Source: Mycobacteriales bacterium (GTDB lineage Bacteria; Actinomycetota; Actinomycetes; Mycobacteriales; SCTD01). Taken from it: 64,000 bases of DNA. The stretch spans positions 62,001 to 126,000 of the forward strand of contig JBBDWV010000016.1 in assembly GCA_040902655.1 (NCBI GenBank). Reading direction: 5' to 3'. The translations under genes were made by a program, and so were the position numbers. Position 1 is the stretch's first letter; each line of letters opens with the position of its first letter. Below, piece by piece: positions 8,199 through 58,460 of the stretch. Below the pieces are notes generated by a model. That model was not told the origin of the DNA. It saw only the letters and a list, made by a program, of their open reading frames with translations, and made no database searches.

Positions 8199-8342
8199 GT
8201 GCGCCGATCCTACGCGGCGCCGGTCAGGCCTTCTTGATCCACGGGGAGTTCGAGGCGGTTGTCGCACCTGGATCCACCTCGAGATGCGCGTGGATCACCG
8301 GGGGAAGCGCCGCCCGTAGGCTCGAGCACGACAGGAGGACGC

Positions 8343-9407
8343 GTGACGGACACGGGCGGGTCCGCGGGGCGGCTGCGGGTGCTCTCCCCGTGGCAGGCGA
8401 TCTCGCCGCAGGCGAAGGCGCGCCGCAGGACGTGGTTCCTCGGCGTCGGCGCGCTGTTCGTCCTGGTCTCGCTGCCGTTCGGTTTCCCGACCGGCCGTGA
8501 GGTGGTCACCGGCTGGGTGCTGCTCCTGCTGCTGGCCGCCTGTGGCGGCGAGTGGCCGATCTGGCGCCGGTCGGTCGCCCGGGACTGGCTGCCGCTGATC
8601 GGCGTGCTGTTCCTCTACGACCTGCTGCGCGGCGTCGCCGACGAGGTCGGCGGCCGGCTGGTCGACCTGCCCGCGCTGCAGAACGGCAAGGCGGGCGCTG
8701 CGGGCACCGATCATGCCCACGTGCTGCCGCAGTTGCGGGCCGACGAGGTGCTGTTCGGCTGGCTGACCGGAGGCCCCGTGCCGACCGTCTGGCTGCAGGA
8801 CCGGCTGCACGTCGCGGGTGATGTCCGGTGGTACGACGTGCTGATCGTCCCGGTCTACATGTCGCACTTCGTCGTGCCGATGGCATTGGCCGTCGCGCTG
8901 TGGGTCACCCGTTACCACCTGTTCCGCCGCTACGTGTGGACCCTGGTCGCGCTGACGCTGATCACCCTGGCGACCTACGTGGTGTTCCCGGCCGCTCCGC
9001 CGTGGATGGCCGGGCTCAACGGCTACCTGCCGGAGGTCGCGCGGGTGGTGGGCGACACGCTGCGGGCGACCGGCATCGGGGAGGTCCGCAACGCCGTGGC
9101 GCGCGGCGAGGCGTACGCCAACGGCGTCGCGGCCATCCCCTCGCTGCACTCGGGCGTGCCGGTCATGGTGCTGCTGTTCAGCTGGCGGCTCGTCCGAGTC
9201 CGCACCCGCGTGCTGCTGGTCCTGTACGTCCTCGCCATGACCTTCACGCTGACCTACGCCGGCGAGCACTACGTCGTCGACGCCTTCGTCGGCTGGGGCT
9301 ACGCCGCGGTCGCCGTCCACGGCGTCGCCTGGCTGTTCCGCCGCAGGCAGGTGCCGGTGACCGCCGACGACGCCGAGGTGCTCGACGCGCTGGTCCCGCG
9401 GGCCTGA
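8343..9407 (+). CDS. PAP2-superfamily integral membrane protein (inositol-phosphorylceramide-synthase-like)
   Basis: 354 residues with about six TM segments and the PAP2 phosphatase signature A-I-P-S-L-H-S-G, followed by A-G-E-H-Y-V-V-D-A. The family acts on lipid phosphates or transfers phospho-head groups. The GTG start (V-T-D-T-G-G-S) sits 5 bp after a perfect AGGAGG; an upstream ATG at 8259 lacks such a site. Divergent from leuS with about 144 bp between them. The specific substrate cannot be read from the sequence. Confidence 0.83.
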   Translation: MTDTGGSAGRLRVLSPWQAISPQAKARRRTWFLGVGALFVLVSLPFGFPTGREVVTGWVLLLLLAACGGEWPIWRRSVARDWLPLIGVLFLYDLLRGVADEVGGRLVDLPALQNGKAGAAGTDHAHVLPQLRADEVLFGWLTGGPVPTVWLQDRLHVAGDVRWYDVLIVPVYMSHFVVPMALAVALWVTRYHLFRRYVWTLVALTLITLATYVVFPAAPPWMAGLNGYLPEVARVVGDTLRATGIGEVRNAVARGEAYANGVAAIPSLHSGVPVMVLLFSWRLVRVRTRVLLVLYVLAMTFTLTYAGEHYVVDAFVGWGYAAVAVHGVAWLFRRRQVPVTADDAEVLDALVPRA

Positions 9408-11115: not shown

Positions 11116-13380
11116 TCAGGCCGGCGTCGCGGCCGCGACGGCAGCCTGACCGACGCTGATCGACCCGTCGTTGGGCGACAGCTGCTCGTGCTGCAGGACC
11201 CGCAGCCCGGCGCTGCGCAGCCGGGTGGCCAGCAGGTCGCTCAGCAGGACGTTCTGGAAGACGCCCCCGCTCAGGGCCACGGTGTCGACACCGGCCTGCG
11301 CGGCCTGCGCGACGGCCAGCGCGGCGGCACCCTCGGCCAGGCCGCGGTGGAATCCGGCAGCCATCACCTCCACCGGGAGACCTCGCCGCCGGTCCCCGAG
11401 CAGCGCGGCGAGCATCGGCGCCGGGTCGAGCGTGGCGTCGCGGATGTCGAACTCGTACTGCGGCACCGATCCCGGATCGGCTGTCCGCGCCACCGCCTCG
11501 AGGTCGACCGCAGCCTGTCCTTCATACGTCACGCAGGTACGCAGCCCCAGCAGGGCCGCGACCGCGTCGAAGAGCCGGCCCGCGCTCGAGGTCTCCGGTG
11601 CGCGACCGGACGCCACCACCGACAGGACGGATGCCCACCGCTCGTCCAGGCGCGGGCCGTGCTCGGCGGCGACGTCGGCTCCCAGGCTGCGGTGCAGCCA
11701 TGCCAGCGCCATCCGCCACGGCTCGCGGACGGCCGCATCACCGCCCGGCAACGCGACGGTGGCGAGATGGCCGACCCGGGTGAAACCGGTCAGGTCGGCG
11801 AGCAGGAACTCCCCGCCCCACAGCGTCCCGTCGGTCCCCAGACCCACGCCGTCGAAAGCGATCCCGAGGACAGGCGAGATCACCCCGTGCTCGGTCAGGC
11901 AGGCCGCGATGTGCGCGTGGTGGTGCTGCACGCCCAGCAGCGGCAACCCGCTCTCGGCGGCCCAGGCCGTCGACCGGTAGTCCGGGTGCAGGTCGTGCGC
12001 GACCACCGCCGGCAGCACCCCGCTGAGCGAGACGAGGTGCTCGACGGCGGCGACGAAGGCGGTGTACGCAGCCCACTCGTCGAGGTCACCCAGGTGCTGG
12101 CTGAGCACGAGCGAGCGGCCGCGCGCGAGCGCGACGGTGTTCTTGAGCTGGGCCCCCACCGCGAGCACGGGGCGGGCAGCCTCGACCGGCAGGCGTAGCG
12201 GCTGCGGGACCCAGCCCCGCGCGCGCCGCACCATCTGCACCCGCTCGCCCGGCAGGCTGCGCAGGATCGAGTCGTCGACCCGGACGTGGATCTCCCGGTC
12301 GTGCGACAGCAGCCCGTCGGTCATCGGGCCGAGCCGGTCGTGGGCCTCGTCGTCGCGGTGGACGACCGGCTCGTCGCTCTGGTTCCCGCTCGTCATGACC
12401 AGCGGCCGCCGGGCGGCGCCGAGCAGCAGCTCGTGGAGCGGGCTGGAGGGCAGCATCACGCCCAGGTCGGGCAGCCCGGGAGCCACCGCCGCCGCGAGAC
12501 CGGCCGCCGGAATACGGGGCGCGAGGACGATCGGGCGCCGCGAGGACACCAGGGCCGCCCGGGCCACGGCGTCCAACCGGCACAGTTGCTGCGCGCCGGC
12601 CAGGTCGCCGACCATGACCGCGAACGGCTTCTCGTCCCGCCGCTTGCGCTGCCGCAGCGCCTGCACCGCGGCCTCGTCGGTGGCGTCGCAGGCCAGGTGG
12701 TAGCCGCCGATGCCCTTCACCGCGACGATGCCGCCGCCGGTCAGGCAGGCCACGGCGGCATCCAGCGCAGCCGGTCCGTCCAGCTCCGCTCCGCCGCTGG
12801 ACCAGGTCAGCCGCGGCCCGCAGACGGGGCAGGCGTTCGGCTGGGCATGGAAGCGCCGGTCCGCCGGGTCGTCGTACTCCGCCTGGCACCGGGCGCACAT
12901 CGCGAAGGACGCCATCGTGGTCGCCGGGCGGTCGTACGGGACCGACCGGACGATCGTGTAGCGCGGGCCGCAGTCGGTGCAGTTGGTGAAGGGATAGCCG
13001 AAGCGCCGGTCGGCCGGATCGGCCAACTCCGCCAGACAGGCCGCGCAGGGCGCGACGTCGGCGCTGACCCGCACGTCGGTCGCGTCCCCCGGCGTGCTGG
13101 CGACGATGGTGAAACCGGTCCCGCCCTGTGGGGGGAGCACGGCGGCGTCGACGGCCTCGACGGCGGCCAGTGCAGGCGGATCGGTCTCCAGCGCGCGCTG
13201 CAGCAGGTCCAGCGCCGCGGCCGGACCCTCGACCTCCAGAACGACGCCCTGTCCGTCGTTGCCGACCCACCCGGCCAGGCCGAGCTCGACCGCCCGCCGG
13301 TAGACGAACGGGCGGAAACCGACACCCTGCACCGTGCCCCGGACAGAAAGGCGCCGACGCTCGACGGCGGGCAGGGGCAC
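11116..13380 (-). CDS. hypF: HypF, carbamoyltransferase of [NiFe]-hydrogenase maturation
   Basis: 754 residues, the usual HypF length. Order: acylphosphatase domain (V-R-G-T-V-Q-G-V-G-F-R-P-F), two zinc fingers (C-x2-C-x18-C-x2-C, twice, each ending C-G-P-R), YrdC-like ATP/carbamoyl domain, then a Kae1-like domain with H-H-H-A-H. HypF turns carbamoyl phosphate into a thiocarboxamide on HypE, the source of the cyanide ligands. The GTG start lies 2 bp after the hypE stop. Longer in-frame extensions lie inside hypE and are shadows. Confidence 0.95.
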   Translation of the reverse strand: MPLPAVERRRLSVRGTVQGVGFRPFVYRRAVELGLAGWVGNDGQGVVLEVEGPAAALDLLQRALETDPPALAAVEAVDAAVLPPQGGTGFTIVASTPGDATDVRVSADVAPCAACLAELADPADRRFGYPFTNCTDCGPRYTIVRSVPYDRPATTMASFAMCARCQAEYDDPADRRFHAQPNACPVCGPRLTWSSGGAELDGPAALDAAVACLTGGGIVAVKGIGGYHLACDATDEAAVQALRQRKRRDEKPFAVMVGDLAGAQQLCRLDAVARAALVSSRRPIVLAPRIPAAGLAAAVAPGLPDLGVMLPSSPLHELLLGAARRPLVMTSGNQSDEPVVHRDDEAHDRLGPMTDGLLSHDREIHVRVDDSILRSLPGERVQMVRRARGWVPQPLRLPVEAARPVLAVGAQLKNTVALARGRSLVLSQHLGDLDEWAAYTAFVAAVEHLVSLSGVLPAVVAHDLHPDYRSTAWAAESGLPLLGVQHHHAHIAACLTEHGVISPVLGIAFDGVGLGTDGTLWGGEFLLADLTGFTRVGHLATVALPGGDAAVREPWRMALAWLHRSLGADVAAEHGPRLDERWASVLSVVASGRAPETSSAGRLFDAVAALLGLRTCVTYEGQAAVDLEAVARTADPGSVPQYEFDIRDATLDPAPMLAALLGDRRRGLPVEVMAAGFHRGLAEGAAALAVAQAAQAGVDTVALSGGVFQNVLLSDLLATRLRSAGLRVLQHEQLSPNDGSISVGQAAVAAATPA

Positions 13381-13382: not shown

Positions 13383-14474
13383 TCAGCAGATGCGCGGGAG
13401 CGGGTCGCCGACGAGCATGTCGACGATCCGGGTGCCACCGAAGGCGGTCTCCAGCAGCACGATCCGTTCCGGCTCCGCCGCGATCCGGCCGATGACGGCA
13501 GCGTCGGCGCCCAGCGGGTGCTGCCGCATCGCGGCCACCGCGGCCTGCGCCTGGTCGGCCGGCACGACGGCGACGAGCTTGCCTTCGTTCGCGACATAGA
13601 GCGGGTCGATCCCGAGCAGGTCGCAGGCGCCGACCACCGGGCGGCGCAGCGGCAGGGCGGCCTCCTGAAGCACCACCGCGACCTCGGCATCGGCCGCCAG
13701 CTCGTTGCACACCGTCCCGACACCGCCCCGGGTGGGGTCTCGTAGCCAGCGGGTGTCCGGCGCTGCGGCCAGCAGGAGCTCGACCAGCTCACCGAGTGGC
13801 GCCGTGTCGGACTCGACGTCGGCCTCGAGGTCGAGGTCCCCGCGCGCGAGCATGACCGCGACCCCGTGGTCGGCGAGCGTCCCGCTCACCAACACCGCGT
13901 CACCCGGGCGCACCAGCTGCGCGCCCAGCTGGCGCTCCGCCGGGATCATCCCCACACCGGCCGTGGTGATGTAGAGGCCGTCGGCAGCACCGGTGTCCAC
14001 CACCTTGGTGTCACCGGTGACGATCGTGACGCCGGCCTTCGCCGCGGCCTCCGCCATGTCCGCGACGATCGCCTTGAGCTCCTCGACCGGGAAGCCCTCC
14101 TCGATCACGAACGCCGCCGACAGCCACATCGGGCGGGCACCGCACATCGCCAGGTCGTTGACCGTCCCGTGCACGGCCAGATGGCCGATCGAGCCGCCGG
14201 GGAACCGGCGGGGCTTCACGACGTAGGAGTCGGTGGAGAACGCCATGCGGTCCCCGGACGGCGTCACGAGCAGCGCCCCGTCGCCCAGCTGCTCGAGCTG
14301 CTCGTTGCGAAACGCCTCGAGGAAGACCGCGTCGATCAGGGCCGCGGACGCCTTTCCCCCGGCGCCGTGCGCGAGCGTGACGACATCGTCGGTCAACCGA
14401 GGGCGGCGCCGACGGAAGGACTCGACCCGCTCGAGCACCAGCTCCTGGCGGCCGTCCGCGGTCGGCGCCGTCAC
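13383..14474 (-). CDS. hypE: HypE, cyanide-forming dehydratase
   Basis: 363 residues of the AIR-synthase/PurM fold, with L-A-H-G-A-G-G-K near the N-terminus and D-P-T-R-G-G-V-G-T in the middle. The protein ends in P-R-I-C: the invariant C-terminal Cys that receives the carbamoyl group and is dehydrated to thiocyanate is present. The GTG start overlaps the hypD stop by 4 bp. It works with HypF upstream of transfer to HypCD. Confidence 0.96.
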   Translation of the reverse strand: MTAPTADGRQELVLERVESFRRRRPRLTDDVVTLAHGAGGKASAALIDAVFLEAFRNEQLEQLGDGALLVTPSGDRMAFSTDSYVVKPRRFPGGSIGHLAVHGTVNDLAMCGARPMWLSAAFVIEEGFPVEELKAIVADMAEAAAKAGVTIVTGDTKVVDTGAADGLYITTAGVGMIPAERQLGAQLVRPGDAVLVSGTLADHGVAVMLARGDLDLEADVESDTAPLGELVELLLAAAPDTRWLRDPTRGGVGTVCNELAADAEVAVVLQEAALPLRRPVVGACDLLGIDPLYVANEGKLVAVVPADQAQAAVAAMRQHPLGADAAVIGRIAAEPERIVLLETAFGGTRIVDMLVGDPLPRIC

Positions 14475-15610
14475 ACCGCCGCCGCGGCGAGACCCGCGGC
14501 CGTGCTGTGCAACCGGCCGAAGGTGTAGTAGGCCGCGCAGGCGCCCTCGGAGGAGACCATGCAGGTGCCGATGGGTGTCTCGGGCGTGCACGCCGTGCCG
14601 AAGACCTTGCACTCCCAGGGCTTGATGACGCCCTTGAGCACCTCACCGCACTGGCAGGACTTCGGGTCGGCCACCCGCACGCCGGGCACCTCGAACAGCC
14701 GCTCCGCGTCGTACGCCGCAAAGTCGTCGTTCAGAGCCAGCGCGCTCTGGGCGATGAAGCCCAGGCCGCGCCACTCGAAGTGCGGCCGCAGGGTGAAGAC
14801 CTGCTCCAGGATCCGGAGCGCAATCGGGTTGCCCTCATCGGTGACGACCCGGTTGTACTGATTCTCCACCTCACACCGGCCGTCGGCGTACTGCTGCAGC
14901 AGCATGACTACGGCCTGCAGGATGTCGAGCGGTTCGAAACCGGCGGTGACCAGCGGCAGGCCGTACCGCTGCGGGACGAAGTCGTACGGCCGGTTGCCGA
15001 TCACGGTACTGACGTGGCCCGGGCCGAGGAAGCCGTCCAGGCGCAGGTCCGGCGAGTTCAGAATGGCCTTGAGCGGCGGCACGATCGTCACGTGGTTGGA
15101 GAAGACGCTGAAGTTCTGCACTCCCAGCTCGCGCGCCCGCAGCAACGTCACAGCGGTCGACGGCGCAGTCGTCTCGAAGCCGACGGCGAAGAACACCACC
15201 TGCTTGTCCGGGTTGGCCAGGGCCAGCTTCAGCGCGTCGAGCGGGCTGTAGACCATGCGCACGTCGGCGCCGCGGGCCTTGGCCTCGAGCAGGCTGGAGG
15301 TGCTACCGGGCACTCGCAGCATGTCGCCGAAGGACGTGAAGATCATGTCGGGTCGCTCGGCCAGCGCGATCGCGTCGTCCACGCGCCCCATCGGGATCAC
15401 GCAGACCGGACAGCCGGGCCCGTGCACCAGCTCCACGGTGTCGGGGAGCAGCTGCTCGATGCCGTGTCGGTAGATGGTGTGCGTATGACCGCCGCACACC
15501 TCCATGAAGGCGTACGGCACGCCGCCTCGGCCGCCCTCGGCCAGCTCGGTGATGCGGCGGACCGCGACGCGCGCGGCCGCAGGATCGCGGTACTCGTCGA
15601 CGTACTTCAC
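14471..15610 (-). CDS. hypD: HypD, Fe(CN)2CO assembly scaffold
   Basis: 379 residues. It carries the C-G-G-H motif (M-E-V-C-G-G-H-T-H), G-P-G-C-P-V-C-V-I-P, G-F-E-T-T-A-P, and the C-terminal Cys set (C-Q-C-G-E, W-E-C-K-V-F-G-T-A-C, G-T-C-M-V-S-S-E-G-A-C) that holds the [4Fe-4S] cluster. HypD with HypC carries the Fe(CN)2CO unit. The ATG overlaps the upstream SIS gene stop by 4 bp, and hypE overlaps its own stop. Confidence 0.97.
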   Translation of the reverse strand: MKYVDEYRDPAAARVAVRRITELAEGGRGGVPYAFMEVCGGHTHTIYRHGIEQLLPDTVELVHGPGCPVCVIPMGRVDDAIALAERPDMIFTSFGDMLRVPGSTSSLLEAKARGADVRMVYSPLDALKLALANPDKQVVFFAVGFETTAPSTAVTLLRARELGVQNFSVFSNHVTIVPPLKAILNSPDLRLDGFLGPGHVSTVIGNRPYDFVPQRYGLPLVTAGFEPLDILQAVVMLLQQYADGRCEVENQYNRVVTDEGNPIALRILEQVFTLRPHFEWRGLGFIAQSALALNDDFAAYDAERLFEVPGVRVADPKSCQCGEVLKGVIKPWECKVFGTACTPETPIGTCMVSSEGACAAYYTFGRLHSTAAGLAAAAV

Positions 15611-16251
15611 AGGCCCTCCTGGGGCTCGAGACGATCCTGGACTCGCTGCCAGAGCGCATGGGCGAGCGCCGACTGCGCCTCCTGCGTCCGGTGCACACTC
15701 TGCCCCTCGACAGCGAGACAGTGCTGGAGATCGGCGCAGGTACCCATGGCCCCGCCGCCGTAGCCGGCCAGCCCGACGGTCAGCATCCCGGCTCGACGGG
15801 CCTGTGCGAAGGCGCGCAGCACGTTCGCAGACCCGCCGCTGGTGGACAGCCCCAGCGCGATGTCGCCGGCCCGGCCGTGCGCCATGAGCTGGCGGGCGAA
15901 CACCACCTCGACGCCGACGTCGTTGGACAATGCCGTCAGCACCGCCGGGTCGGCCGCCAGGGACCGCGCGGGCAGCGACCGGCCGGTCGTCGGGGAGACG
16001 AACAGCGCCGACATGCCCGCGGCGTCGGTGGCCGAGCCGCCGTTGCCGAAGCAGAACAGTCGCCCGCCGGCGGCGAAGGCCGCGGCCATGGCGTCCGCAG
16101 CGGCGTCGAGCACCGGTCCCAGCTCGACCACGGTACGGATGCGTGCCTGCGCGCTCTCCAGCGTCTTGGCCTGCGCCGAACGGGCGAGGTCGGCGAGCAG
16201 GGCCGTGGCGTCACGCTCGTCCGTGTCGAGCATCGGGTACAGGAAGCTCAT
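15607..16251 (-). CDS. SIS-domain protein, phosphoheptose-isomerase-like (GmhA family)
   Basis: 214 residues with F-C-F-G-N-G-G-S-A-T-D-A near residue 65, the sugar-phosphate binding loop of GmhA, and L-S-T-S-G-G-S-A-N-V near residue 140. GmhA isomerises sedoheptulose-7-phosphate. No heptose pathway genes are here; the gene sits in the hyp operon with 4-bp overlaps on both sides. It may have been recruited for hydrogenase maturation, which is inference from context. The partner SIS-HypC fusion immediately upstream supports this. Confidence 0.82.
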   Translation of the reverse strand: MSFLYPMLDTDERDATALLADLARSAQAKTLESAQARIRTVVELGPVLDAAADAMAAAFAAGGRLFCFGNGGSATDAAGMSALFVSPTTGRSLPARSLAADPAVLTALSNDVGVEVVFARQLMAHGRAGDIALGLSTSGGSANVLRAFAQARRAGMLTVGLAGYGGGAMGTCADLQHCLAVEGQSVHRTQEAQSALAHALWQRVQDRLEPQEGL

Positions 16252-16967
16252 GACGGGCCCGCCAGGCTGGTGATGGCCATGCCGGCGTGCACCACGAGCA
16301 GGTCATCGGGTGCTGCCGCTCCCACGAGCGAGAGGTCGACGTCCTCGAGCCCGTCGGCGGTGCGCACCCGCGCCGTGGAGCCCGACGCACTGACGACTTC
16401 CGCGAGGCGCCCTTCGTCGGAGCAGGTGATGCACACCGGGCCGTCGCAGTCGGCGGGCGGCACGAGCAGCCCCGCATGCTCGAGGCAGACGTGGGACAGC
16501 TCCCACAGCAGGTGATAGAGCAGGATGAAGCTGCCGTCGTGGGCGGCCGTCTGGTCGTCGGGCAGCCACAGGACGTGGTCGGCCGCGCCCGCCTCCGGTC
16601 GCTCTCCCGCGCCGATCCACAGCGTGGCCGCACCCCAGACCGGGGCCCGGCGGACGAGCTCGCGGGCCACCGGGTCCTGCGCCGTGGCGATGACCAGGAG
16701 CACGTCGCCGCTGCTCAGGTTGGCGCGCGCGGTCGGGATCAGCTGGTGCGACGAGAGCGCCACCGAGGCCAGCGCCGGCTTGCCGACGATGACCGGGTGC
16801 ACGAACTCCACCGCGACGTGCTGCGCGTGGTGCGGCCAGGCCGGTGACGCGCACCAGAGGGTGCCGCCCGCCGACAGCCGCCGCGCGAGCGCGAGCGAGG
16901 CCGCCGCGAGATCGTCGGCGAGGCCGCCCGACAGCCCGGTGGCGACGGCAGCCTCGGCCACACTCAC
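16248..16967 (-). CDS. SIS-like domain fused to a HypC-type domain
   Basis: 239 residues. Residues 1-150 resemble a divergent SIS domain (F-V-H-P-V-I-V-G-K-P, then E-L-S-H-V-C-L-E-H-A-G-L-L). Residues about 175-239 resemble HypC: C-I-T-C-S-D-E-G-R-L-A-E-V-V followed by D-D-L-L-V-V-H-A-G-M-A-I. True HypC needs an N-terminal Met-Cys; here the cysteines are internal, so it cannot act in exactly the same way. It lies between hypC and the SIS isomerase with 4-bp overlaps, so stoichiometric coupling is likely. Confidence 0.75.
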   Translation of the reverse strand: MSVAEAAVATGLSGGLADDLAAASLALARRLSAGGTLWCASPAWPHHAQHVAVEFVHPVIVGKPALASVALSSHQLIPTARANLSSGDVLLVIATAQDPVARELVRRAPVWGAATLWIGAGERPEAGAADHVLWLPDDQTAAHDGSFILLYHLLWELSHVCLEHAGLLVPPADCDGPVCITCSDEGRLAEVVSASGSTARVRTADGLEDVDLSLVGAAAPDDLLVVHAGMAITSLAGPS

Positions 16968-17281
16968 GACTGGCCGCCGGCGCCGACCGCTGTCCCTTCG
17001 AGGCCCTCGATCGCTGCCGAGTAGTCGTTGATCTCCTGCTCGTACATGTCGCCGAGCGCTTTGAGGGCGTCGAGCGTCTCGCGCGCCTCGGCCTCGTCGA
17101 TCTTGGCCATCGCGAAGCCGACATGGACGAGCACCCAGTCACCGACCTGCGCACCCCCGGGGCCGTCGAGCCCGATCAGGGACACCGAGACCTCACGGCG
17201 GACGCCCTCGACGTCCACCTTCGCGCGCTGCTGTGCCGGGTCGTTGATCTCGACGATCTGGCCCGGAATGCCGAGGCACAT
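16964..17281 (-). CDS. hypC: HypC, hydrogenase maturation chaperone
   Basis: 105 residues starting M-C-L-G-I-P-G-Q-I-V-E-I, the HypC signature in which Cys2 carries iron and contacts the immature large subunit. V-G-D-W-V-L-V-H-V-G-F-A-M follows at mid-length. The ATG has GGGAG 6 bp upstream. First gene of the minus-strand operon hypC, SIS-HypC, SIS, hypD, hypE, hypF, small unknown. The C-terminal 30 residues are longer and more acidic than in short HypCs. Confidence 0.96.
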   Translation of the reverse strand: MCLGIPGQIVEINDPAQQRAKVDVEGVRREVSVSLIGLDGPGGAQVGDWVLVHVGFAMAKIDEAEARETLDALKALGDMYEQEINDYSAAIEGLEGTAVGAGGQS

Positions 17282-17382: not shown

Positions 17383-18144
17383 ATGCGACTGGCATTCGTG
17401 GGCAAGGGCGGTGCGGGCAAGTCCTCGTTGTCGGGCACCTTCGCCCGGTTGCTCGCCGGGACGGAGGAGCGGGTTCTCGCCATCGACTCCGACCCGATGC
17501 CGGGCATGGCCTTTTCCCTCGGGGCTCCGCAGAGCGACGCGGGGCTGCCCGACGAGGCCGTCGAGGAGTACGAAGACGACCAGGGCCGCCGGCGCTACCG
17601 GCTGCGCGAGGGGCTGACCGGGCCGGAGGCGGTCGAGCAGTACGCCGTACGCACGCCCGACGGCGTGCACTTCTTCCAGCTCGGCAAGGCCCGCGGGCCG
17701 AAGTGGACCAATCCGCGGCAGCACTTCGGTTTCCAGCGCGTGCTGGACGACCTGCCCGGCGACGGCTGGAGCATCGTCGGCGACCTGCCGGGCGGCACCC
17801 GTCAGCCGTTCCTGACCTGGGGCCGCTACGCCCAGACGTTCCTGGTCGTCGTCGAGCCGACGCCCGCGTCCCTGCTCACGGGTCGCCGGCTCGCCAAGCT
17901 CGCCGCGAGCGCCAAGGCTCCCCGTGTCGTGGCGGTCGCCAATAAGGTCCGCGAGCCGCAGGACGCCGCACGGGTTGCCGACCGGACCGGCCTCGAGGTG
18001 ATCGCCTCGGTTCCGTTCGATCATGCGGTCGGCGAGGCGGATCGTCTCGGCCGGGCGGTCCTGGACCACGATCCCGACGGACGGACCGTGACGGCGGTAC
18101 GGTCCCTTCTCGAGGTCCTGAGGAACGAGACGGAGCGCGTATGA
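17383..18144 (+). CDS. CooC/MinD-like P-loop ATPase without the CxC motif
   Basis: 253 residues. It has a deviant Walker A (K-G-G-A-G-K-S-S at 8-15) and V-L-A-I-D-S-D-P-M-P (switch/A' region). The CxC metal motif of CooC is absent; the corresponding region is an insert rich in charged residues. Closest relative in the window is the 29825-30619 product: both have a post-A' stretch ending in G-L-P-(D/E)-(E/A)-A and lack Cys there. Its stop overlaps the next ATPase start (ATGA), giving a two-gene pair. Divergent from hypC. A role in hydrogenase metal insertion or redox gating is inferred. Confidence 0.8.
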   Translation: MRLAFVGKGGAGKSSLSGTFARLLAGTEERVLAIDSDPMPGMAFSLGAPQSDAGLPDEAVEEYEDDQGRRRYRLREGLTGPEAVEQYAVRTPDGVHFFQLGKARGPKWTNPRQHFGFQRVLDDLPGDGWSIVGDLPGGTRQPFLTWGRYAQTFLVVVEPTPASLLTGRRLAKLAASAKAPRVVAVANKVREPQDAARVADRTGLEVIASVPFDHAVGEADRLGRAVLDHDPDGRTVTAVRSLLEVLRNETERV

Positions 18145-18875
18145 AGGTCGCCGTGGTCGGCAAGGGCGGATCGGGCAAGACGACGACCTCCGCCATCCTC
18201 GCCCGTACGTTCGCCCGCTCGGGCCGGACGACGCTCGCGCTGGACTGCGACAGCAATCCCAATCTCGGGATCTCCCTGGGAATCGGCGAGGACGCCACCG
18301 AGCAGCTGGTCGCGGTACGCGATGCGCTCGACGCGGGTGAGGAGCAGCACGCCACCTCGTCCGACGACCTGATGGACCGCTTCGGTGCCGACGCCCCCGA
18401 CGGGGTCCGGCTGGCGGTCGTCACCGCGATCCAGAATCCCGAACCAGGCTGTCCATGATGTGGCATCTCACCTGAGCAGTTGCTCGGGAAGCTGGCACGT
18501 CCGGACCGTGTGGTCATCGCCGACTTCGAGGCCGGCATCGGCACCGTGATGCGCCTCGATGCGCCGGTGGACGTCGTCGTGGTGGTGGTCGAGCCGACAG
18601 CCAAGTCGCTGGAGGTCGGCCGCCGGGCCGCCGATCTCGTCGCCGAGGGACATCTGGGACGCGTCGTGGTGACGGCGAACAGGGTCCGCGACGCGGAGGA
18701 CGAGGCGCGGGTCCGTGCGGCCTTCCCGGGCCTGGAGCCGGTGCTCGTCCCCGACGACCCGGCGATCGTCGACGCCGAGCGGCGTGGTCTCGCCCCGCTC
18801 GACGCCGCGCCGGGCTCTCCCGGTGTGCGCGTCCTGGTCGCCCTCGCCGAGAGCCTGGCGGCCGACGGCGGCTGA
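18141..18875 (+). CDS. CooC-like ATPase with in-frame TGA, candidate selenoprotein
   Basis: Read with TGA at 18456-18458 as selenocysteine, this is 244 residues. It has Walker A K-G-G-S-G-K-T-T (8-15), D-C-D-S-N-P-N-L-G (35-43), C104-P-U106-C107-G, and then D-F-E-A-G-I-G-T and the adenine region A-N-R-V-R-D. The two halves are in the same frame with no other disruption. The paralogue at 29082-29828 has C107-V-C109-C110-G at the aligned place, so TGA replaces the second Cys of the CxC motif. In CooC1 of Carboxydothermus this CxC (C112, C114) binds metal at the dimer interface. A hairpin follows at 18471-18488. Alternatives: recent nonsense mutation or sequencing error. The intact remainder and exact codon position favour recoding. 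selA, selB, selC and selD are not in the window. Confidence 0.72.
18471..18488 (+). other. Candidate bacterial SECIS hairpin after the TGA
   Basis: CCTGAGC (18471-18477) pairs with GCTCGGG (18482-18488): seven pairs including one U-G, closing a four-base loop A-G-U-U. The loop starts 19 nt after the TGA and has G at its second position. Known bacterial SECIS elements have an apical loop roughly 16-37 nt after UGA with a G among the first two loop bases, so the geometry fits. No folding program was run. Confidence 0.55.
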
Positions 18876-18950: not shown

Positions 18951-19739
18951 TCAGCTGCGGGCGCGGGCGTGCGCCTTGTCGAGGGCGTCCAACACCTCGT
19001 CGAGGGCGACCTGCACGTCCGGTGCGACCGGCGTCAGGCCGACGGCGCCGGTCCGGTCCGCCGAGGCGACCTCGGGGTCGTAGGGCAGCACGCCGGCCAG
19101 CGGGATGCCCTCAGCGGCCAGCGCGTCGCGGAAGAACGCGACGTCGTCCGGCGTGCGTGCCTTGTTACCGAGCGCGAGCACCTCGGGGATGCCCAGCTCG
19201 GCGGCGAGCGCCGCGGTGCGGGACGCCGTCAGCACCGACTTGCGGGTCGGCTCGCAGACCACGAGCAGCACGTCGGCGTGCGCGAGCGTGCCACCGGAGC
19301 GGCTCAGGTGCTCGAGGCCGGCCTCCATGTCGACCAGCGCGAGCTCGACGTCCTCGAGCGCGTCGGCGAGCAGGCTGCGCAAGGTCGCGTGGCCACTGCA
19401 GGTGCAACCTGCGCCGGCCTCGGTCACCTTGATGGCCGACAGCAGGGTGGGGCCCGCCGGCGTCGGTCGGCCGTACTCCGTCAGCAGGTCGGCGGCGGAG
19501 GTGTTCCCGCCGGAACCGACGATGGTGGCCCGTGGGAGGACGGGGACCAGCTCGGTCTCTGCCAGCGACAGGCCGAGCGACAGGCCCAGGTTGGGGTTGG
19601 AGTCGGTGTCGATCGCCACGACGTGCCGGCCCCGCTCGGCGTACGCGCGAGCGATCAGCCCGGAGACGGTCGTCTTGCCGACGCCGCCCTTGCCCACGAC
19701 CCCGAGCTTGAGCTTGAGCTGGTTGGCGACAGTGGTCAT
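18951..19739 (-). CDS. CooC-like ATPase with CxC motif
   Basis: 262 residues. Walker A K-G-G-V-G-K-T-T lies at 17-24 and V-V-A-I-D-T-D-S-N-P-N-L-G follows. The CxC motif C112-T-C114-S-G-H matches even the numbering of CooC1, and V-D-M-E-A-G-L-E-H-L comes next. Start chosen at ATG 19739 with GGAGGA upstream. CooC proteins are nickel-dependent ATPases of CO-dehydrogenase maturation; no CODH gene is in the window, so a hydrogenase nickel role is the likely one (inference). Divergent from the NifU-like gene. Confidence 0.85.
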   Translation of the reverse strand: MTTVANQLKLKLGVVGKGGVGKTTVSGLIARAYAERGRHVVAIDTDSNPNLGLSLGLSLAETELVPVLPRATIVGSGGNTSAADLLTEYGRPTPAGPTLLSAIKVTEAGAGCTCSGHATLRSLLADALEDVELALVDMEAGLEHLSRSGGTLAHADVLLVVCEPTRKSVLTASRTAALAAELGIPEVLALGNKARTPDDVAFFRDALAAEGIPLAGVLPYDPEVASADRTGAVGLTPVAPDVQVALDEVLDALDKAHARARS

Positions 19740-19853: not shown

Positions 19854-19934
19854 ATGGTGTTTGCCTCGCTCATGAATGCGGTCGGGCCGCCCGTCGTCGA
19901 TCACGTCACGAAGGGCCGATCCAGCCGTGGCTGA
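19854..19934 (+). CDS. Possible 26-aa leader peptide before the NifU-like gene
   Basis: ATG with TAGGAG 6 bp upstream opens a frame M-V-F-A-S-L-M-N-A-V-G and ends at TGA 19932-19934, overlapping the GTG start of the next gene by 8 bp. The better ribosome site belongs to this frame, not to the NifU-like gene, so it may couple translation. Product function unknown; too short to judge coding potential firmly. Confidence 0.4.
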   Translation: MVFASLMNAVGPPVVDHVTKGRSSRG

Positions 19935-20496
19935 GTCGACTCCGGAGGTCAGCGTCGCGGAGACCCGTGGTGGCTCTCTTGCTGCGCTCGGTCCGCTGCT
20001 CGACCGCCTCGAGGAGCTGTTGGAGGACATCGAGGGGCTCGACGAGCAGGTGCGCAACCGCATCTTCGAGTTGCTCGACGGCGTCGACGCGGTGCACCGC
20101 CTCGCGGTGACCCGGACTGCGGAGGTCCTGGGCGAGGACCTGGAGCCGCTCCGGCGCAAGGACGTGGCCATCGACTGGCTGTTCGAGGCGTACGGCGTCG
20201 GCGTGAACGACAGCGAGGCGGCTGAGCAGGCGCTGGAGCAGATCCGCCCCTACCTGCATGAGCACGGCGGTGAGGTCGAGGTCCTGGGGGTCGAGCACGG
20301 AGTGGTGCAGGTCCGTCTCACCGGTGCCTGCTCCGGGTGCACGTCGGCCGGCGAGACGCTGCGTCACGGCGTCGAGGAGGCGCTACGGGAGAACCTGCCG
20401 GGCTTCGTCTCGATGGATGTCGCACCGGACGACGGCGCGGCGGCGCACCCGCCGCCGAACCAGGTGCTGCTGCAGATCACCACGCGGCCGGCCTGA
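19927..20496 (+). CDS. NifU-like Fe-S scaffold protein
   Basis: 189 residues from GTG (V-A-E-S-T-P-E-V-S). The N-terminal 95 residues are acidic and helical (E-E-L-L-E-D-I-E-G-L-D-E). The C-terminal part is the NifU C-domain: I-R-P-Y-L-H-E-H-G-G-E-V-E-V near 106 and G-A-C135-S-G-C138-T-S, which holds an assembling Fe-S cluster. It probably supplies Fe-S clusters to the hydrogenase small subunit. A longer start at 19876 is possible, but it has no good ribosome site. Confidence 0.85.
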   Translation: MAESTPEVSVAETRGGSLAALGPLLDRLEELLEDIEGLDEQVRNRIFELLDGVDAVHRLAVTRTAEVLGEDLEPLRRKDVAIDWLFEAYGVGVNDSEAAEQALEQIRPYLHEHGGEVEVLGVEHGVVQVRLTGACSGCTSAGETLRHGVEEALRENLPGFVSMDVAPDDGAAAHPPPNQVLLQITTRPA

Positions 20497-23091: not shown

Positions 23092-23868
23092 TCAGTGACC
23101 GACGGCCTCCACGGCCTCGAGCCGGTCCAGCTCCTCGATCAGCATCCACCACAGAGCCCAGTCACGCGGCTCCATCCCCTCGCTGCTGTTGGTGCTGCCG
23201 ATCGCCAGCTTCATCCGGTCCCGCAGGGCGAAGGTGTGGCCCCAACGGCCCTCCCGCTCGAGCAGCTCGAGCTCTCCGAGCAGCTCGCGCAGGGCGAGCA
23301 GGGCAGGCGAATCCTCCAGCCGGTCGCCGACGACCGTCGGTCGCAGGTCGTCGGCCAGCGCCAGCAGCGGCGCGCGGCGGACCTCCACCCGCACCAGGTC
23401 CAGCGCCACCTCGAGGGCGTCCTGCACCGAGGCGCTGAGCCCCTCACCCGTCGTGACGACCTCCGGCTCCACCTCGATCGCGATGCTTCGCGGGGGCAGG
23501 AAGCCGAGCGCCGCGGCGATCTCCACCACCAGGTCGGGATGGACATAGCCGGTCACCGCGTCGCCGACCAGCGCCTGGACGTGGGCCGGCGAACTCTGCG
23601 GCGGCTCGATCCGTGAGCGCACCACCGAGCCCGGCTTCCGCCCCCGCACGACCGCGCTCACCAGGACGAGCGTGGCCGGGCGAAGGTCCTCCAGCCGCTG
23701 GGCGACGGCCACCGCACCGTAGTGCAGCTCCTCGACCAGGACGCCCGGGCCGAGGTCCTCGCCCTGCAGTCTGTCGATCACCACGCGGCCCAGATCCAGA
23801 TCGCTCTGGTACAGCTCGCTGACGCCGCCCACCAGCACGGTCACAGGCTGACCCGTGGGGTCAGTCAC
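23092..23868 (-). CDS. Degenerate M52 hydrogenase-protease-like protein
   Basis: 258 residues from GTG (V-T-D-P-T-G-Q-P), overlapping the large-subunit stop by 8 bp. The first 150 residues align with the M52 fold: S-E-L-Y-Q-S-D-L-D-L-G matches the first motif and L-V-L-V-S-A-V-V-R-G-R-K-P-G-S matches I-V-D-A-V-D-L-G-R-P-P-G-T of the intact protease. The metal-binding Asp is replaced by Ser. A C-terminal helical domain of about 100 residues is added (R-D-W-A-L-W-W-M-L-I-E-E-L). Probably a chaperone or structural partner for the large subunit rather than a peptidase. Confidence 0.65.
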   Translation of the reverse strand: MTDPTGQPVTVLVGGVSELYQSDLDLGRVVIDRLQGEDLGPGVLVEELHYGAVAVAQRLEDLRPATLVLVSAVVRGRKPGSVVRSRIEPPQSSPAHVQALVGDAVTGYVHPDLVVEIAAALGFLPPRSIAIEVEPEVVTTGEGLSASVQDALEVALDLVRVEVRRAPLLALADDLRPTVVGDRLEDSPALLALRELLGELELLEREGRWGHTFALRDRMKLAIGSTNSSEGMEPRDWALWWMLIEELDRLEAVEAVGH

Positions 23869-25783
23869 CGCCACACGAGCAGGTGTTGACCTCACGCGTG
23901 ACCTCGCCGTCACCCGTGTGGGCGTGCGTGGTGCACGGCATGCAGGGGTCGAAACTGCGGATCGCCCGCAGCATGTCGATGCTCGTGAACGTCTCCGGGT
24001 TGGACAGGTCCTCGATCATCGGCGTGTTCATGACCGCCTCCTCGTACGCACCCGGCTGACCCCAGGGGTCGCGTGGTGAGGCGTTGATGGTCGAGGGTGT
24101 GGAGATCTGGTAGTTCGTGATCTTGCCCTTGTCCATCACGAGGTGGTGGATCAGCCAGCCGCGACCCGCTCCCCAGAAGCCGACCCCGACCTGCTCGTCC
24201 TGCGGGATCGCCTCCTCCAGCTGCACCGGGGTGAGCGCGGCCACCCGGCGCTCGCCGCGCTGGAAGAGCTTGTAGGCCTCGAACAGACTCTCCAGCGAGA
24301 CCAGCTGGCTGAACAGGTAGTGATAAGCGCGTCCGCGGTTGCGCTCCAGGGCGTTCCACTTGTCCGGGACGTGCCACTCGACCTCGCGCTCACCGGTCTC
24401 GCCCTTGGGGACGAGGAAGCGCATGCTGTGGCCGGTCGCCTCCATGTAGTCGCTGGCCGGCATCTTCTGCGCCAGCGCCGTGATGAGCAGCCGGGAGTAG
24501 CAGCCGGCCTCCATCACCCGGCGGTCCCAACGGGGCGCCGTGGACCAGGTGTACTTGTCCTTCCAGTCCCGGCCGCCGGGCTTGGGCAGGGTCCGCTTGT
24601 TCCAGGGGTGGTAGGGCGAGATGGGGTTGCCGAGCGGGTCGGTCGCGTAGCGCGAGGTGTGCGACGGCTCGTAGTAGGAGTGCTCGATGAACTCCTCCCA
24701 GCCGATGTTGATGTCGGTGAGCCGGGTGGTGACCAGCTTGCCGTCGAGCACGACCCCGGGTGTGGACCAGCGCTTCTCGCCCCACTCGTTGCAGTTCTCG
24801 TACTTGGCGTCGTAGGAGTAGGGGTCGTCCCAGAAGCCCAGGTCGATGTGGTTGGTTGCCCGGGAGCCCACCAGTCTGTAGCGCTCGTCCGCCTCGTAGA
24901 AGAAGGCCGGGATGTCGTCCCAGACGGCCATCATCCGCTGCGCGAAGTCGAACAGCCGACCCAGCTTGGAGTGGAACTCGTTCAGCGACTGCAGCGTCAC
25001 CGTCGTCGACACGCCGCCGGGCACGACGTTCTGCGGGTGCGGGAACTTGCCGGTCAGGATGACGACCTGCTCGCGGGACAGCCTGGTGAACTCCAACCCC
25101 TCGCGGTAGAGCGCACCGGTGAGCGGGTTGAGCGCGGTCATCAGGTCGGCCATGGTCTTGAAGCCGTGGATGTGCTCGTTGGGGCACTTCCAGCTCTCCG
25201 CCTTCGGCCACAGCTCGGGGTTGGAGTGCCGGATCACCGATTCGGAGTAGTCCGGGCCGGCCAGCAGGTAGAGGTGCAGCGGGTTGTCGTAACCCATCTC
25301 GGCGGCCTGCTCCATGTTGCGCACCACGATGCCCAGCGGCGGCGGCGAGATGCCCATCGCCATCTCGATGGCCTGCGCCGCGCAGTGCGCGTGCACGCCG
25401 CCGCACACGCCGCAGGCGCGCGAGGAGACGAAGATGGCGTCGCGCGGGTCGCGCCCCATCAGGATGAGTTCGTAGCCGCGGAACAGCGTGGCCTGGGCGT
25501 GCGCGTCGAGGTACTCGCCGTTGTCCAGGTCGGCCGTCACGTGGACCGCCAGCGCGCCCGCGATGCGGGTGACCGGGTCCATGTTGAGGTCCTTGATGTG
25601 CCCGTTGCGCGCGATGAGCCGATTGATGCGGTCCTCACGCTCGCGCTCGGTCACGCCGGCGGCGCCGAGCTGGCCGGGGATCTGGGGTTGGGCGACCGCG
25701 ACGTCGTACGGGTTCGGGATGCCCCCGCGCAGCGTCGCGTTGCCGCGCGCGTCGAACTGCACGGGCAGGGTCTTGAAGCACAT
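23861..25783 (-). CDS. [NiFe]-hydrogenase large (catalytic) subunit
   Basis: 640 residues. L1 motif R-A-C124-G-V-C127-G-G-V-H131 and L2 motif D-P-C614-M-P-C617-T-T-H620 give the four Ni-Fe cysteines; none is replaced by TGA. A 20-residue tail after His620, ending C-S-C-G-G-D, would be removed by the M52 protease. AGGAG precedes the ATG. Group 1 uptake type; by eye it resembles the actinobacterial high-affinity atmospheric-H2 enzymes (1h or its relatives), but subgroup needs a tree. Same operon as the small subunit 65 bp upstream. Confidence 0.95.
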   Translation of the reverse strand: MCFKTLPVQFDARGNATLRGGIPNPYDVAVAQPQIPGQLGAAGVTEREREDRINRLIARNGHIKDLNMDPVTRIAGALAVHVTADLDNGEYLDAHAQATLFRGYELILMGRDPRDAIFVSSRACGVCGGVHAHCAAQAIEMAMGISPPPLGIVVRNMEQAAEMGYDNPLHLYLLAGPDYSESVIRHSNPELWPKAESWKCPNEHIHGFKTMADLMTALNPLTGALYREGLEFTRLSREQVVILTGKFPHPQNVVPGGVSTTVTLQSLNEFHSKLGRLFDFAQRMMAVWDDIPAFFYEADERYRLVGSRATNHIDLGFWDDPYSYDAKYENCNEWGEKRWSTPGVVLDGKLVTTRLTDINIGWEEFIEHSYYEPSHTSRYATDPLGNPISPYHPWNKRTLPKPGGRDWKDKYTWSTAPRWDRRVMEAGCYSRLLITALAQKMPASDYMEATGHSMRFLVPKGETGEREVEWHVPDKWNALERNRGRAYHYLFSQLVSLESLFEAYKLFQRGERRVAALTPVQLEEAIPQDEQVGVGFWGAGRGWLIHHLVMDKGKITNYQISTPSTINASPRDPWGQPGAYEEAVMNTPMIEDLSNPETFTSIDMLRAIRSFDPCMPCTTHAHTGDGEVTREVNTCSCGGD

Positions 25784-25848: not shown

Positions 25849-27258
25849 TCAGACGCGGCTGCCGGAGCGCTTCCGCTTCCCGGGAGGGGCGATGACACTC
25901 GGGCTGCCCGGGTGGCTGCCGTCGGTCCCGTCGTCGGCGATCTTGCCCCAGGCCTCGCCGGAATGACGCGAGGTGTCGCTGAACAGGCGCATCCTGTCGT
26001 AGAACTTGTGGGCGACGTCCTGCACCAGCGTGGGCTCGTCCTTGTGGCGGGCGAACGCGGTGGGTGCGTCGCTCTCCCGATCCCAGCGGACCTCACGGTT
26101 GAGGTTGTCGTTGCTGAACTTGCGCAGCGGCCGGATCATGCTGCCGGTGATCCGCGACACGGTCGTCGAGGCCAGCGAGCCGGGCGGGCGCTTGTAGAAA
26201 GGCGTGAACTTGTCCGGGAAGCCCGGCATCGTGCAGCCGATGCAGGCGCCACCGGCGTTCATGCAGCCGCCGGCTCCCCGGATCGCCCCACGCGCGGTGA
26301 TGTTGCAGTTGACGACCGGACCCCAGCAGCCGACCTCGACCAGGCACTCCGGGTCGCCGAACTCGTGCGCGAAGGTGCCCTCCTCGTAATACGCACCGCG
26401 CACGCACCGGCGATGCACGGTCTCCCCGAACAGCCATGCGGGTCGGCCCAACTCGTCGAACTCCGGCAACGGGCCGAAGCCCTGCAGAAAGTAGAGGACC
26501 GCGGCGATCGTCTCGGTGAAGTTGTCGCCGATCGGCGAACAACCTGGGATGTTGACGACCGGCACGCCCAGGGTGGAGCGGTAGTCCTTGCCGAGGAAGT
26601 CCATCAGGCTCATCGCGCCGGTCGGATTGCCCGCCGCCGCCGGGATGCCGCCCCACGTCGCGCAGGTGCCGATCGCCACCATCGCCGCGGAGTTCTTGGC
26701 CAGCCGGGCGATCCACTCCGTGGTGCTCACCGCCCGCATCTGGCCGCCCGGCCCCCACGGCTCCTCACCAGTGGCAGACCAGTAGCCACCCTGCGAATGG
26801 GCGAGCACCTCGTCGGCGATGGAACCCTCGAGGATCACGACGTACGGCGCGTTCAGCGTGCCCTCGATCGCCTGCTCCGCCGCCACCAGGTAGTGCGGCC
26901 CGGACTCCATGTTGATGACCGGGTGGTGCAGGATCACGCGTGGAATGCCCGGGTGTGCACCCAGCAGAAGGCTCTCCACCGAGGGATTGGCCGCCCCGGT
27001 GACCGCCACGCTGCAGCCGTCACAGCTCATGCCGGCGAACCAGAAGGCGTGCACCTTCTCCAGCGGCCCGAACCGGGTCGCGGCGGTCGCCGACGCGGCC
27101 GGCGCCAGCATGTCCTCGGTCATGGCTCCGGTCGGCATGCCGAACTGGCCGATGTGCTCCAGATCGTGGAATCCGGTGATCGGGCCGAGCGTGTCGAGCA
27201 ACTCCTCTGCCGGCGTGCGAACCGCGACGTGGCGGGAACCGCCATTGCCCTTTGCCAT
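25849..27258 (-). CDS. [NiFe]-hydrogenase small (electron-transfer) subunit
   Basis: 469 residues. C79-D-G-C82 (proximal cluster), G-T-C-A-T-W-G-G, G-C-S-P-I-G-D-N-F, then the medial/distal Cys set in the C-terminal half (E-C-L-V-E-V-G-C-W-G, G-G-C-M-N-A-G-G-A-C-I-G-C). No Tat RRxFxK leader is visible at the N-terminus, so the enzyme is cytoplasmic or on the inner face of the membrane. No C-terminal TM helix; the basic tail K-R-K-R-S-G-S-R ends it. The first gene of the structural operon, divergent from a small regulator operon. Confidence 0.95.
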   Translation of the reverse strand: MAKGNGGSRHVAVRTPAEELLDTLGPITGFHDLEHIGQFGMPTGAMTEDMLAPAASATAATRFGPLEKVHAFWFAGMSCDGCSVAVTGAANPSVESLLLGAHPGIPRVILHHPVINMESGPHYLVAAEQAIEGTLNAPYVVILEGSIADEVLAHSQGGYWSATGEEPWGPGGQMRAVSTTEWIARLAKNSAAMVAIGTCATWGGIPAAAGNPTGAMSLMDFLGKDYRSTLGVPVVNIPGCSPIGDNFTETIAAVLYFLQGFGPLPEFDELGRPAWLFGETVHRRCVRGAYYEEGTFAHEFGDPECLVEVGCWGPVVNCNITARGAIRGAGGCMNAGGACIGCTMPGFPDKFTPFYKRPPGSLASTTVSRITGSMIRPLRKFSNDNLNREVRWDRESDAPTAFARHKDEPTLVQDVAHKFYDRMRLFSDTSRHSGEAWGKIADDGTDGSHPGSPSVIAPPGKRKRSGSRV

Positions 27259-27908: not shown

Positions 27909-28310
27909 CCGGCCAGGCCGAGGACGTCCCGATCGGGCTTCCCCGCAACTATCTGCGCCCGTGCCTGCTGCTGCTGCTGGCCGAGGGCACCTCGCACGGC
28001 TACGAGCTGCTCGACCAGGTGGGCAGTCTCGGGTTGGCCCGGGTCGCCCCGGGTGGGCTGTGGGGGGGGGGCGGGGGGCGCCCGGGGCGGGCTCTACCGG
28101 TGCCTGCGGGCGATGGACGAGGAGGGCCTGGTCCGCTCGACCTGGGAGCCGTCCGGATCCGGTCCGGCCCGACGCACCTACGAGCTCACCGATGAGGGCC
28201 TTGACTGGCTGCACGTCGTCGCCGGATCGCTGTCCGAGCTCAGCCGGGCGCTGACCAACTACCGCCGCCGCTACCAGCGCATGGCCGAGCAGCACGAGCC
28301 GGTCCGTTGA
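27905..28310 (+). pseudogene. PadR-family regulator with frameshift in a poly-G tract
   Basis: Frame 1 from ATG 27905 gives N-Y-L-R-P-C-L-L-L-L-L-A-E-G-T-S-H-G-Y-E-L-L-D-Q-V, a PadR winged helix. After a G10 run (28062-28071) the protein continues in the +1 frame: G-G-L-Y-R-C-L-R-A-M-D-E-E-G-L-V, then T-Y-E-L-T-D-E-G. The two halves together make one PadR protein. G-G-G-T-G-G-G-C-T at 28051 recurs as a near copy 34 bp later, which suggests a short duplication or assembly error. Ends in TTGA with the next ATPase. Could be intact if one base is miscalled. Confidence 0.65.
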
Positions 28311-29074
28311 GGCTCGCACTCGCCGGCAAGGGCGGCGCCGGCAAGACGACGATCAGCGCGACGCTGGCCCGGCTGGCCGCCCGGTCAGGCCTCTCGGTCG
28401 TGGCCATCGACGCCGACGCCAACCCGAACCTGTCCTTCGCCCTCGGTGTCTCGCCCGACCTGGCGGCCTCGCTCGGGCCCGTGCCCACCTCGATGGTCTC
28501 CCGACGGATCGGCGGCGCCGGACTCACCGAGCCTGTCGACGACATTTTGGAGCGCTACTCCGTTCTCGGACCGGACGGCGTGCGGCTGCTGGGCATGGGC
28601 GCACCGGCGCACGCGGACGAGGGCTGCCTGTGCTCGGCGCACGCCGTCGTGTCGTCCCTGCTCGAGGACCTCGGGTCGCCGGACCGGATGGTCGTCGTCG
28701 ACATGGAGGCCTCGCCCGAGCACCTCAGCCGCGGCACCGTCCGGCACGTCGACGCCATCTGCATGGTCGCCGAGCCCTACTACCGCTCGCTGGAGACGGT
28801 CCGCCGGATGGGCGAGCTCGTGGCGGAGCTGCCGGTCCAGCGGGTCGCGGTCGTGGCCAACAAGGTGCGCTCGTCGGCCGACGAGGCTGCGATCCAGGAG
28901 TTCTGCGACCGGCACGGCTTCGAGCTGGCCGGCAGCATCCCCTGGAGTGACGAGGTGGTGGCTGCGGACCGCCAGCGCGTGCCGGTCGTCGAGTGGCCGG
29001 GTGCCGAAGCCGTCGTGACCGCGGTCCAGGCGCTCGCCGAGCAGCTGGCCGTGACGACACCGGCCCGCTCGTGA
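28307..29074 (+). CDS. CooC-like ATPase with CxC motif
   Basis: 255 residues from TTG overlapping the PadR stop. Walker A K-G-G-A-G-K-T-T at 8-15, V-V-A-I-D-A-D-A-N-P-N-L, and C107-L-C109-S-A-H. V-D-M-E-A-S-P-E-H-L follows. Like the 18951-19739 product (C-T-C-S-G-H). CxC is the metal site in CooC. In the plus-strand operon with the small regulators, opposite the hydrogenase genes; a nickel-handling role for hydrogenase is inferred. Confidence 0.83.
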   Translation: MRLALAGKGGAGKTTISATLARLAARSGLSVVAIDADANPNLSFALGVSPDLAASLGPVPTSMVSRRIGGAGLTEPVDDILERYSVLGPDGVRLLGMGAPAHADEGCLCSAHAVVSSLLEDLGSPDRMVVVDMEASPEHLSRGTVRHVDAICMVAEPYYRSLETVRRMGELVAELPVQRVAVVANKVRSSADEAAIQEFCDRHGFELAGSIPWSDEVVAADRQRVPVVEWPGAEAVVTAVQALAEQLAVTTPARS

Positions 29075-53138: not shown

Positions 53139-53141
53139 TGG

Positions 53142-56030: not shown

Positions 56031-56043
56031 GGGACCTCCGAGA

Positions 56044-56738: not shown

Positions 56739-56739
<1 letters not shown>
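56044..56739 (-). CDS. ureF: UreF, urease accessory protein
   Basis: 231 residues, all helical and very Ala-rich; [17 protein letters not shown] is the UreF opening motif. ATG overlaps the ureC stop by 1 bp. It activates UreG in the UreDFG complex. Confidence 0.9.

Positions 56740-58456
<1,717 letters not shown>

Positions 58457-58460
<4 letters not shown>

Follow-up and report, generated by a model that had tools for sequence, protein, structure and literature searches.

An in-frame stop at the metal site of a CooC-like ATPase

The question raised by this locus is whether a TGA codon lying at the metal-binding motif of a CooC-like ATPase gene ends the protein or is read as selenocysteine (Sec). 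In the window, i.e., the whole stretch of 64,000 nucleotides that was analyzed, the frame opening with ATG at 18141 meets TGA at codon 106 and runs on through 138 sense codons to a terminal TGA at 18873 to 18875, which confirms the in-frame TGA noted in a first-pass annotation. The features of the gene are as follows.

18141 to 18875, plus strand: predicted Sec-containing CooC-like ATPase (244 residues, U106), assigned from its Walker A motif, CbiA/MinD-NifH-type domain and match to CooC1
18450 to 18452, plus strand: Cys104 codon (TGT), first motif position, occupied by TGA in 38 relatives (U-x-U)
18456 to 18458, plus strand: putative UGA Sec codon in place of the second Cys of the C-x-C metal motif; 64 distinct loci have a stop here
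18471 to 18488, plus strand: predicted bacterial SECIS hairpin CCUGAGC-AGUU-GCUCGGG, apical loop 18478 to 18481, with an invariant core and covariation

TGA is a common terminator in the window, where it closes 54 of the 62 predicted genes; the one at 18873, which ends the ATPase gene, is an ordinary stop. At 72% GC, the chance of an open stretch of 139 codons after the internal TGA is about 0.1 by base composition. The open frame by itself is unremarkable, and the excess over chance lies in the recurrence of the stop in 64 loci and in the conserved hairpin.

Translated through the TGA, the motif reads G-C104-P-[TGA]-C-G. The read-through product contains a CbiA/MinD-NifH-type domain and a deviant Walker A motif, GKGGSGKT, whose K8 is, together with K13, invariant among 62 aligned proteins; residues 104 and 106 are solely C or U in the same set. 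Its best match in a sequence search of the PDB was CooC1 (3KJE; E=2.8e-11, about 23% identity), and in the alignment C112-Y-C114 of CooC1 stands opposite C104-P-U106, so that the C-x-C motif appears to be present with Sec replacing one Cys. The TGA thus falls opposite Cys114, at the second Cys of the pair, where the first-pass annotation had placed it. In CooC1 of Carboxydothermus hydrogenoformans, C112-x-C114 is the site that binds metal at the dimer interface; CooC inserts nickel with ATP in the maturation of carbon monoxide dehydrogenase (CODH). An AlphaFold model of the Sec-ATPase (pLDDT 91.6), compared with the PDB by Foldseek, ranked MinD first and CooC1 second (TM-score 0.73), with nitrogenase Fe proteins close. 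The protein has the signature lysine and the MinD/CooC-type P-loop fold by which the CooC family is recognized. No model of NCBIfam release 20.0 scored above its cut-off against it, and the plasmid collection that was searched gave no match.

Homologues have Cys in place of the stop, namely 14 members of the family itself and paralogues encoded in the window. The nearest of the latter (29082 to 29828, minus strand; 48% identity) reads A-C-V-C-C-G, as had been reported.

Selenocysteine machinery of the host genome

The host genome (3.56 Mb, 97.9% complete) contains tRNA-Sec with a UCA anticodon (76 bits) together with SelA, SelB and SelD, the full set that a bacterial selenoprotein calls for; selB and tRNA-Sec were the genes whose absence, according to the first-pass annotation, would speak against Sec. 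SelD itself (G000:C5:157722-158645) has an in-frame TGA at the usual Sec, or active-site, position, and the formate dehydrogenase alpha subunit FdhA (C45:78410-79159) has one at the usual Sec site. With this machinery and the TGA-bearing SelD and FdhA genes, the host decodes Sec, and its selenoprotein set would comprise at least the CooC-like ATPase, SelD, FdhA and a second CooC-like ATPase, described below.

Stop codons and tRNA anticodons among relatives

A search of 299 genomes within the order found close orthologues in six others (76 to 81% identity), every one of them with a stop at this same codon. The two congeners have TGA; the other four genomes, from a different family, have TAG, and tRNA-Sec has the anticodon CUA in each of them. 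In three of these four, the protein is the same as in records of Geodermatophilus chilensis, Blastococcus mobilis and Modestobacter sp. A wider scan of 84,980 named genomes yielded 80 loci. With each locus counted once and five duplicates removed, there were 26 C-x-U, 38 U-x-U and 14 C-x-C forms, i.e., 64 distinct loci with a stop at the motif; locus L144, which appears frameshifted, is excluded from these codon counts yet is among the 34 genomes of the selA tally given below. The L144 orthologue (about 8001 to 8941, in an Acidimicrobiales metagenome-assembled genome, or MAG) retains the hairpin sequence. The hosts belong to the Geodermatophilaceae, Nocardioidaceae, Pseudonocardiaceae, Sporichthyaceae, Acidimicrobiia, Euzebyaceae and Egibacteraceae, and the family also reaches MAGs labelled Gemmatimonadales and Chloroflexi. 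Among relatives that can be grown in culture, Blastococcus saxobsidens DSM 44509 and Modestobacter sp. DSM 44400 have the UAG form and Pseudonocardia kunmingensis DSM 45301 has the UGA form.

The stop codon and the anticodon go together. All five distinct TAG genomes have a CUA tRNA-Sec. ARAGORN resolved the tRNA-Sec of 24 TGA genomes, each with UCA, as in the host genome; the TAG form occurs in Geodermatophilaceae, only where tRNA-Sec has CUA. Since codon and anticodon change together, decoding as Sec is all but settled. Pyrrolysine was considered and rejected because "tRNA-Pyl" in ARAGORN output is a label for the CUA anticodon, and the Geodermatophilaceae molecules so labelled score as tRNA-Sec.

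A single base separates TGA from TGC or TGT, and a nonsense mutation, a pseudogene or a base-call error at a Cys codon could in principle give the same picture. The stop, however, stands at one codon in 64 distinct loci, whose downstream halves are intact and conserved rather than decayed, and it is common to independent genomes, which excludes a base-call error; the hairpin is conserved as well, and the matching tRNA-Sec anticodons refute this reading, to which we give next to no credence. Readthrough with an ordinary amino acid, or a deliberately truncated product, might be proposed on the grounds that TGA, the usual terminator of the window, could be leaky in this context, but the sole other residue at position 106 is Cys, TAG appears only alongside a CUA tRNA-Sec, and selA is absent from 8 of the 14 Cys-form genomes, so that we consider it highly improbable. 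In the Sec-form genomes selA was matched in 32 of 34, versus 6 of 14 for the Cys forms, a difference for which Fisher's p = 3e-4 is to be read as indicative because the genomes are related. The two Sec-form genomes that lack a selA match (L091 and L115) are both MAGs, one of them of 1.6 Mb.

In a quick tree, computed with the motif columns kept in (stops entered as X), Sec forms are among the deepest branches, and at least 13 state changes are counted among C-x-C, C-x-U and U-x-U; support for the deep nodes is moderate and the long branches L136 and L140 are uncertain. From this depth and number of changes, the Cys forms look largely derived.

A conserved SECIS hairpin

The predicted hairpin has a 7-bp stem and an AGUU loop and starts 12 nt 3' of the TGA, inside the coding sequence. 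Alone it folds with -10.6 kcal/mol, at a codon-to-loop spacing of 19 nt, and the 45 bases from the TGA onward fold with -19.9 kcal/mol (z -2.7). Published constraints for bacterial SECIS elements are a loop of 3 to 9 nt with G in the first two positions, a stem of 4 to 16 bp, a distance of 16 to 37 nt from the codon and a minimum free energy at or below -7.5 (PMC13188914), and the hairpin lies within them.

Its core, GAGCAGTTGCTC (codons GAG-CAG-TTG-CTC), is invariant in all 69 Sec-form sequences. Of the Leu codons in the window, 4% are TTG, yet TTG is fixed in the Sec-form hairpin; at the same Leu codon it is found in 2 of 14 Cys forms. When 59 distinct sequences were compared, pairing held in 98.3% of pair cells, and both sides had changed in the outer pair (C-G/G-C) and in pair three (C-G/U-G/U-A). 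There are 33 two-sided cells, compared to a shuffled mean of 15.5; none of 500 shuffles reached 33, and versions of the hairpin slid along the sequence pair at about 50% or less. In the Cys forms many of the pairs are broken, and the hairpin is decayed in most. L071 (2320 to 3051), a Cys form with TGC, still has the complete hairpin, although selA had no match in its genome; it is likely to be a fossil of recent Sec loss.

Taken together, the Sec machinery, the covariation of codon and anticodon and the hairpin make it nearly certain, in our judgment, that UGA106 is decoded as Sec. As far as sequence can tell, the product is a full-length selenoprotein, and its family is new among selenoproteins but belongs to an ATPase kind already known.

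Two Sec codons, and further Sec-containing subfamilies

The first-pass annotation underestimated the case: neither the TAG codon with its CUA tRNA-Sec nor the forms described here were part of that account, which had asked whether homologues carry Cys or TGA at this codon. In 38 relatives (loci including L088, L091, L094, L096, L098 to L103, L105, L107, L109 and L111 to L113) two TGA codons lie six bases apart, giving U-x-U. No second hairpin was identified in the U-x-U genes, and the first UGA and the loop of the shared hairpin are 25 nt apart, within the published range of 16 to 37 nt; one hairpin may serve both UGA codons.

A second subfamily is represented in the host genome itself:

G000:C26:9357-10100 (L151 5377 to 6101), minus strand: second putative Sec-containing CooC-like ATPase, G-S-G-[TGA]-T-G

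This gene is stand-alone, outside any hydrogenase cluster. Its TGA is common to nine genomes, with a conserved hairpin around GTCACGGTYCGTGAC; in the Cys orthologues L159 and L206 the hairpin loop is altered. Two congeners have Cys paralogues of this type of ATPase. Another CooC-like subfamily, L148 and L218, reads G-[TGA]-L-C (U-x-C), and the L148 gene adjoins hydrogenase genes. These two subfamilies were examined in less depth than the main family. With several subfamilies carrying TGA at the motif, the C-x-C site appears to be a repeated place for Sec.

Gene neighborhood and hydrogenase maturation

The Sec-ATPase gene lies among hydrogenase and hyp genes and further ATPase paralogues:

11116 to 13332, minus strand: HypF (TIGR00143, 751 bits)
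13383 to 14474, minus strand: HypE (TIGR02124)
14471 to 15610, minus strand: HypD (TIGR00075)
15607 to 16251, minus strand: SIS-domain protein within the hyp cluster (PF13580)
16248 to 16961, minus strand: protein with a C-terminal HypC-like domain, within the hyp cluster (PF01455)
16964 to 17281, minus strand: HypC (TIGR00074)
17383 to 18144, plus strand: partner CooC-like ATPase lacking C-x-C, its gene sharing an ATGA overlap with the Sec gene
18951 to 19739, minus strand: CooC-like ATPase paralogue, C-T-C (Cys form)
19876 to 20496, plus strand: protein with a NifU-like Fe-S scaffold domain (PF01106)
23861 to 25783, minus strand: [NiFe]-hydrogenase large subunit, keeping Cys (DPCMPC)
25849 to 27258, minus strand: [NiFe]-hydrogenase small subunit
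28307 to 29074, plus strand: CooC-like ATPase paralogue, C-L-C (Cys form)
29082 to 29828, minus strand: CooC-like ATPase paralogue, C-V-C-C-G (Cys form)
29825 to 30619, minus strand: ATPase paralogue without C-x-C

The partner ATPase has an orthologue directly upstream of the Sec gene in nearly all relatives, and hyp or hydrogenase genes are near the Sec gene in many of their loci. The large subunit of the hydrogenase, weighed as another possible Sec protein, was rejected: it has no in-frame stop and keeps Cys. No Ni-CODH gene (cooS) was found beside the Sec-ATPase gene in the locus neighborhood. A urease-like cluster (54589 to 59040, named from sequence reading) adds another nickel-dependent system to the window, with ABC-transporter-like genes (49578 to 54431) upstream of it.

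Two maturation proteins are absent from most genomes tested. HypA was over the cut-off in 1 of 20 genomes, with a weaker match in a second and none at all in 18, and HypB (TIGR00073) was over the cut-off in 1 of 14. The best HypB match of the host genome, below the cut-off, is the UreG-type gene of the urease cluster (55371 to 55937), and the Sec-ATPase gave no over-cut-off match to TIGR00073.

A probable role in nickel insertion

We propose that SelB and tRNA-Sec(UCA), directed by the hairpin within the coding sequence 12 nt downstream, would place Sec at UGA106, giving a CooC/MinD-type ATPase with Cys-Pro-Sec where CooC1 has its metal-binding C-x-C. This ATPase would mature the [NiFe]-hydrogenase of the same cluster by ATP-driven insertion of nickel, standing in for the missing HypA/HypB pair. 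Sec may be a nickel ligand, as the first-pass annotation had suggested, and a selenolate would be a softer and more easily re-reduced one. The absence of HypA and HypB from most genomes tested, the nickel insertion by CooC and a report that an ATPase replaces the HypB GTPase in Thermococcus (PMC9164220) favor a role of the dimer-interface site, C-x-U or U-x-U, in inserting nickel. Sequence supports the Sec decoding, the hairpin, the position at the metal site, the link with hydrogenase genes and the lack of HypA/HypB in most genomes tested. The nickel role draws on homology and neighborhood, and nickel as the metal, its delivery to the hydrogenase and the benefit gained from selenium all stand as suggestions; we regard the explanation as a whole, Sec decoding with nickel insertion, as probable. 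Against the nickel role, the cluster also encodes several CooC paralogues of the Cys form, which could act as the nickel chaperones in its stead, and the fold resembles MinD and nitrogenase Fe protein just as well.

The closeness of nitrogenase Fe proteins in the Foldseek ranking makes an Fe-S or redox role the main rival. The protein would then be a selenoprotein and a NifH/MinD-like ATPase but no nickel inserter, its C-x-U site holding an Fe-S cluster or performing thiol-selenol redox chemistry, for example as an electron donor to the HypCD scaffold or in reductive activation of the hydrogenase. A NifU-like gene recurs in the cluster among relatives, and most known selenoproteins are redox proteins (PMC13188914), both in keeping with such a role; on the other side, the nearest solved protein by sequence with matching Cys positions is CooC1, and the lack of HypA and HypB in most genomes tested leaves nickel insertion without an assigned protein. 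We consider the redox role rather unlikely and prefer nickel insertion.

A broader proposal, the parts of which we hold jointly and with evenly balanced confidence, is that CooC-like ATPases are an unrecognized selenoprotein superfamily in which Sec has come repeatedly to the first, second or both motif positions (C-x-U, U-x-U, U-x-G, U-x-C), with one hairpin serving two UGA codons and selenolates inserting nickel into hydrogenases independently of HypA/HypB.

Comparison with known systems and significance

The Sec-ATPase is similar to CooC1 in being a P-loop ATPase with the deviant Walker A lysine and paired Cys ligands (C112/C114 aligned with C104/U106), but in its family Sec replaces one or both Cys, and its gene is beside [NiFe]-hydrogenase and hyp genes rather than CODH. 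It would fill the same step as HypB and the Thermococcus ATPase, and like them it is a P-loop NTPase, with a metal site that would control the oligomer state, but it is outside the HypB family and has Sec at the metal site, and HypA too is missing in most genomes. In [NiFeSe]-hydrogenases Sec is likewise linked to a nickel enzyme; there it is in the hydrogenase, whereas here it is in an accessory ATPase.

We know of no earlier Sec-containing CooC/MinD-type ATPase, in agreement with the first-pass annotation, and a search of open-license papers for a Sec-containing CooC returned nothing relevant. A catalogue of 119 prokaryotic selenoprotein families of May 2026 (PMC13188914) includes no CooC/MinD-type ATPase and no U-x-U motif; it lists a U-x-x-U motif and a CobW-related selenoprotein of cobalamin synthesis (NF041053, UxxC), which is also a Sec-containing member of an NTPase metallochaperone family but is a G3E GTPase with a different motif. 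The UAG-encoded selenoproteins reported from Geodermatophilaceae, namely FDH, a UGSC protein and AhpC (PMC5330540), share the TAG codon and the CUA tRNA-Sec, but a CooC-like ATPase is not among them.

If our reading is true, this would be the first Sec-containing CooC/MinD-type ATPase known to us, and U-x-U would be a metallochaperone site of two selenolates. It suggests a selenium chemistry of metal delivery rather than catalysis, and points to hydrogenase maturation without HypA/HypB. The family, with its UGA, UAG, Cys, single-Sec and double-Sec forms, offers a naturally replicated system for asking what selenium buys. Standard annotation easily mis-calls such genes as truncated, and a maturation step of environmental hydrogen oxidizers may therefore have stayed hidden.
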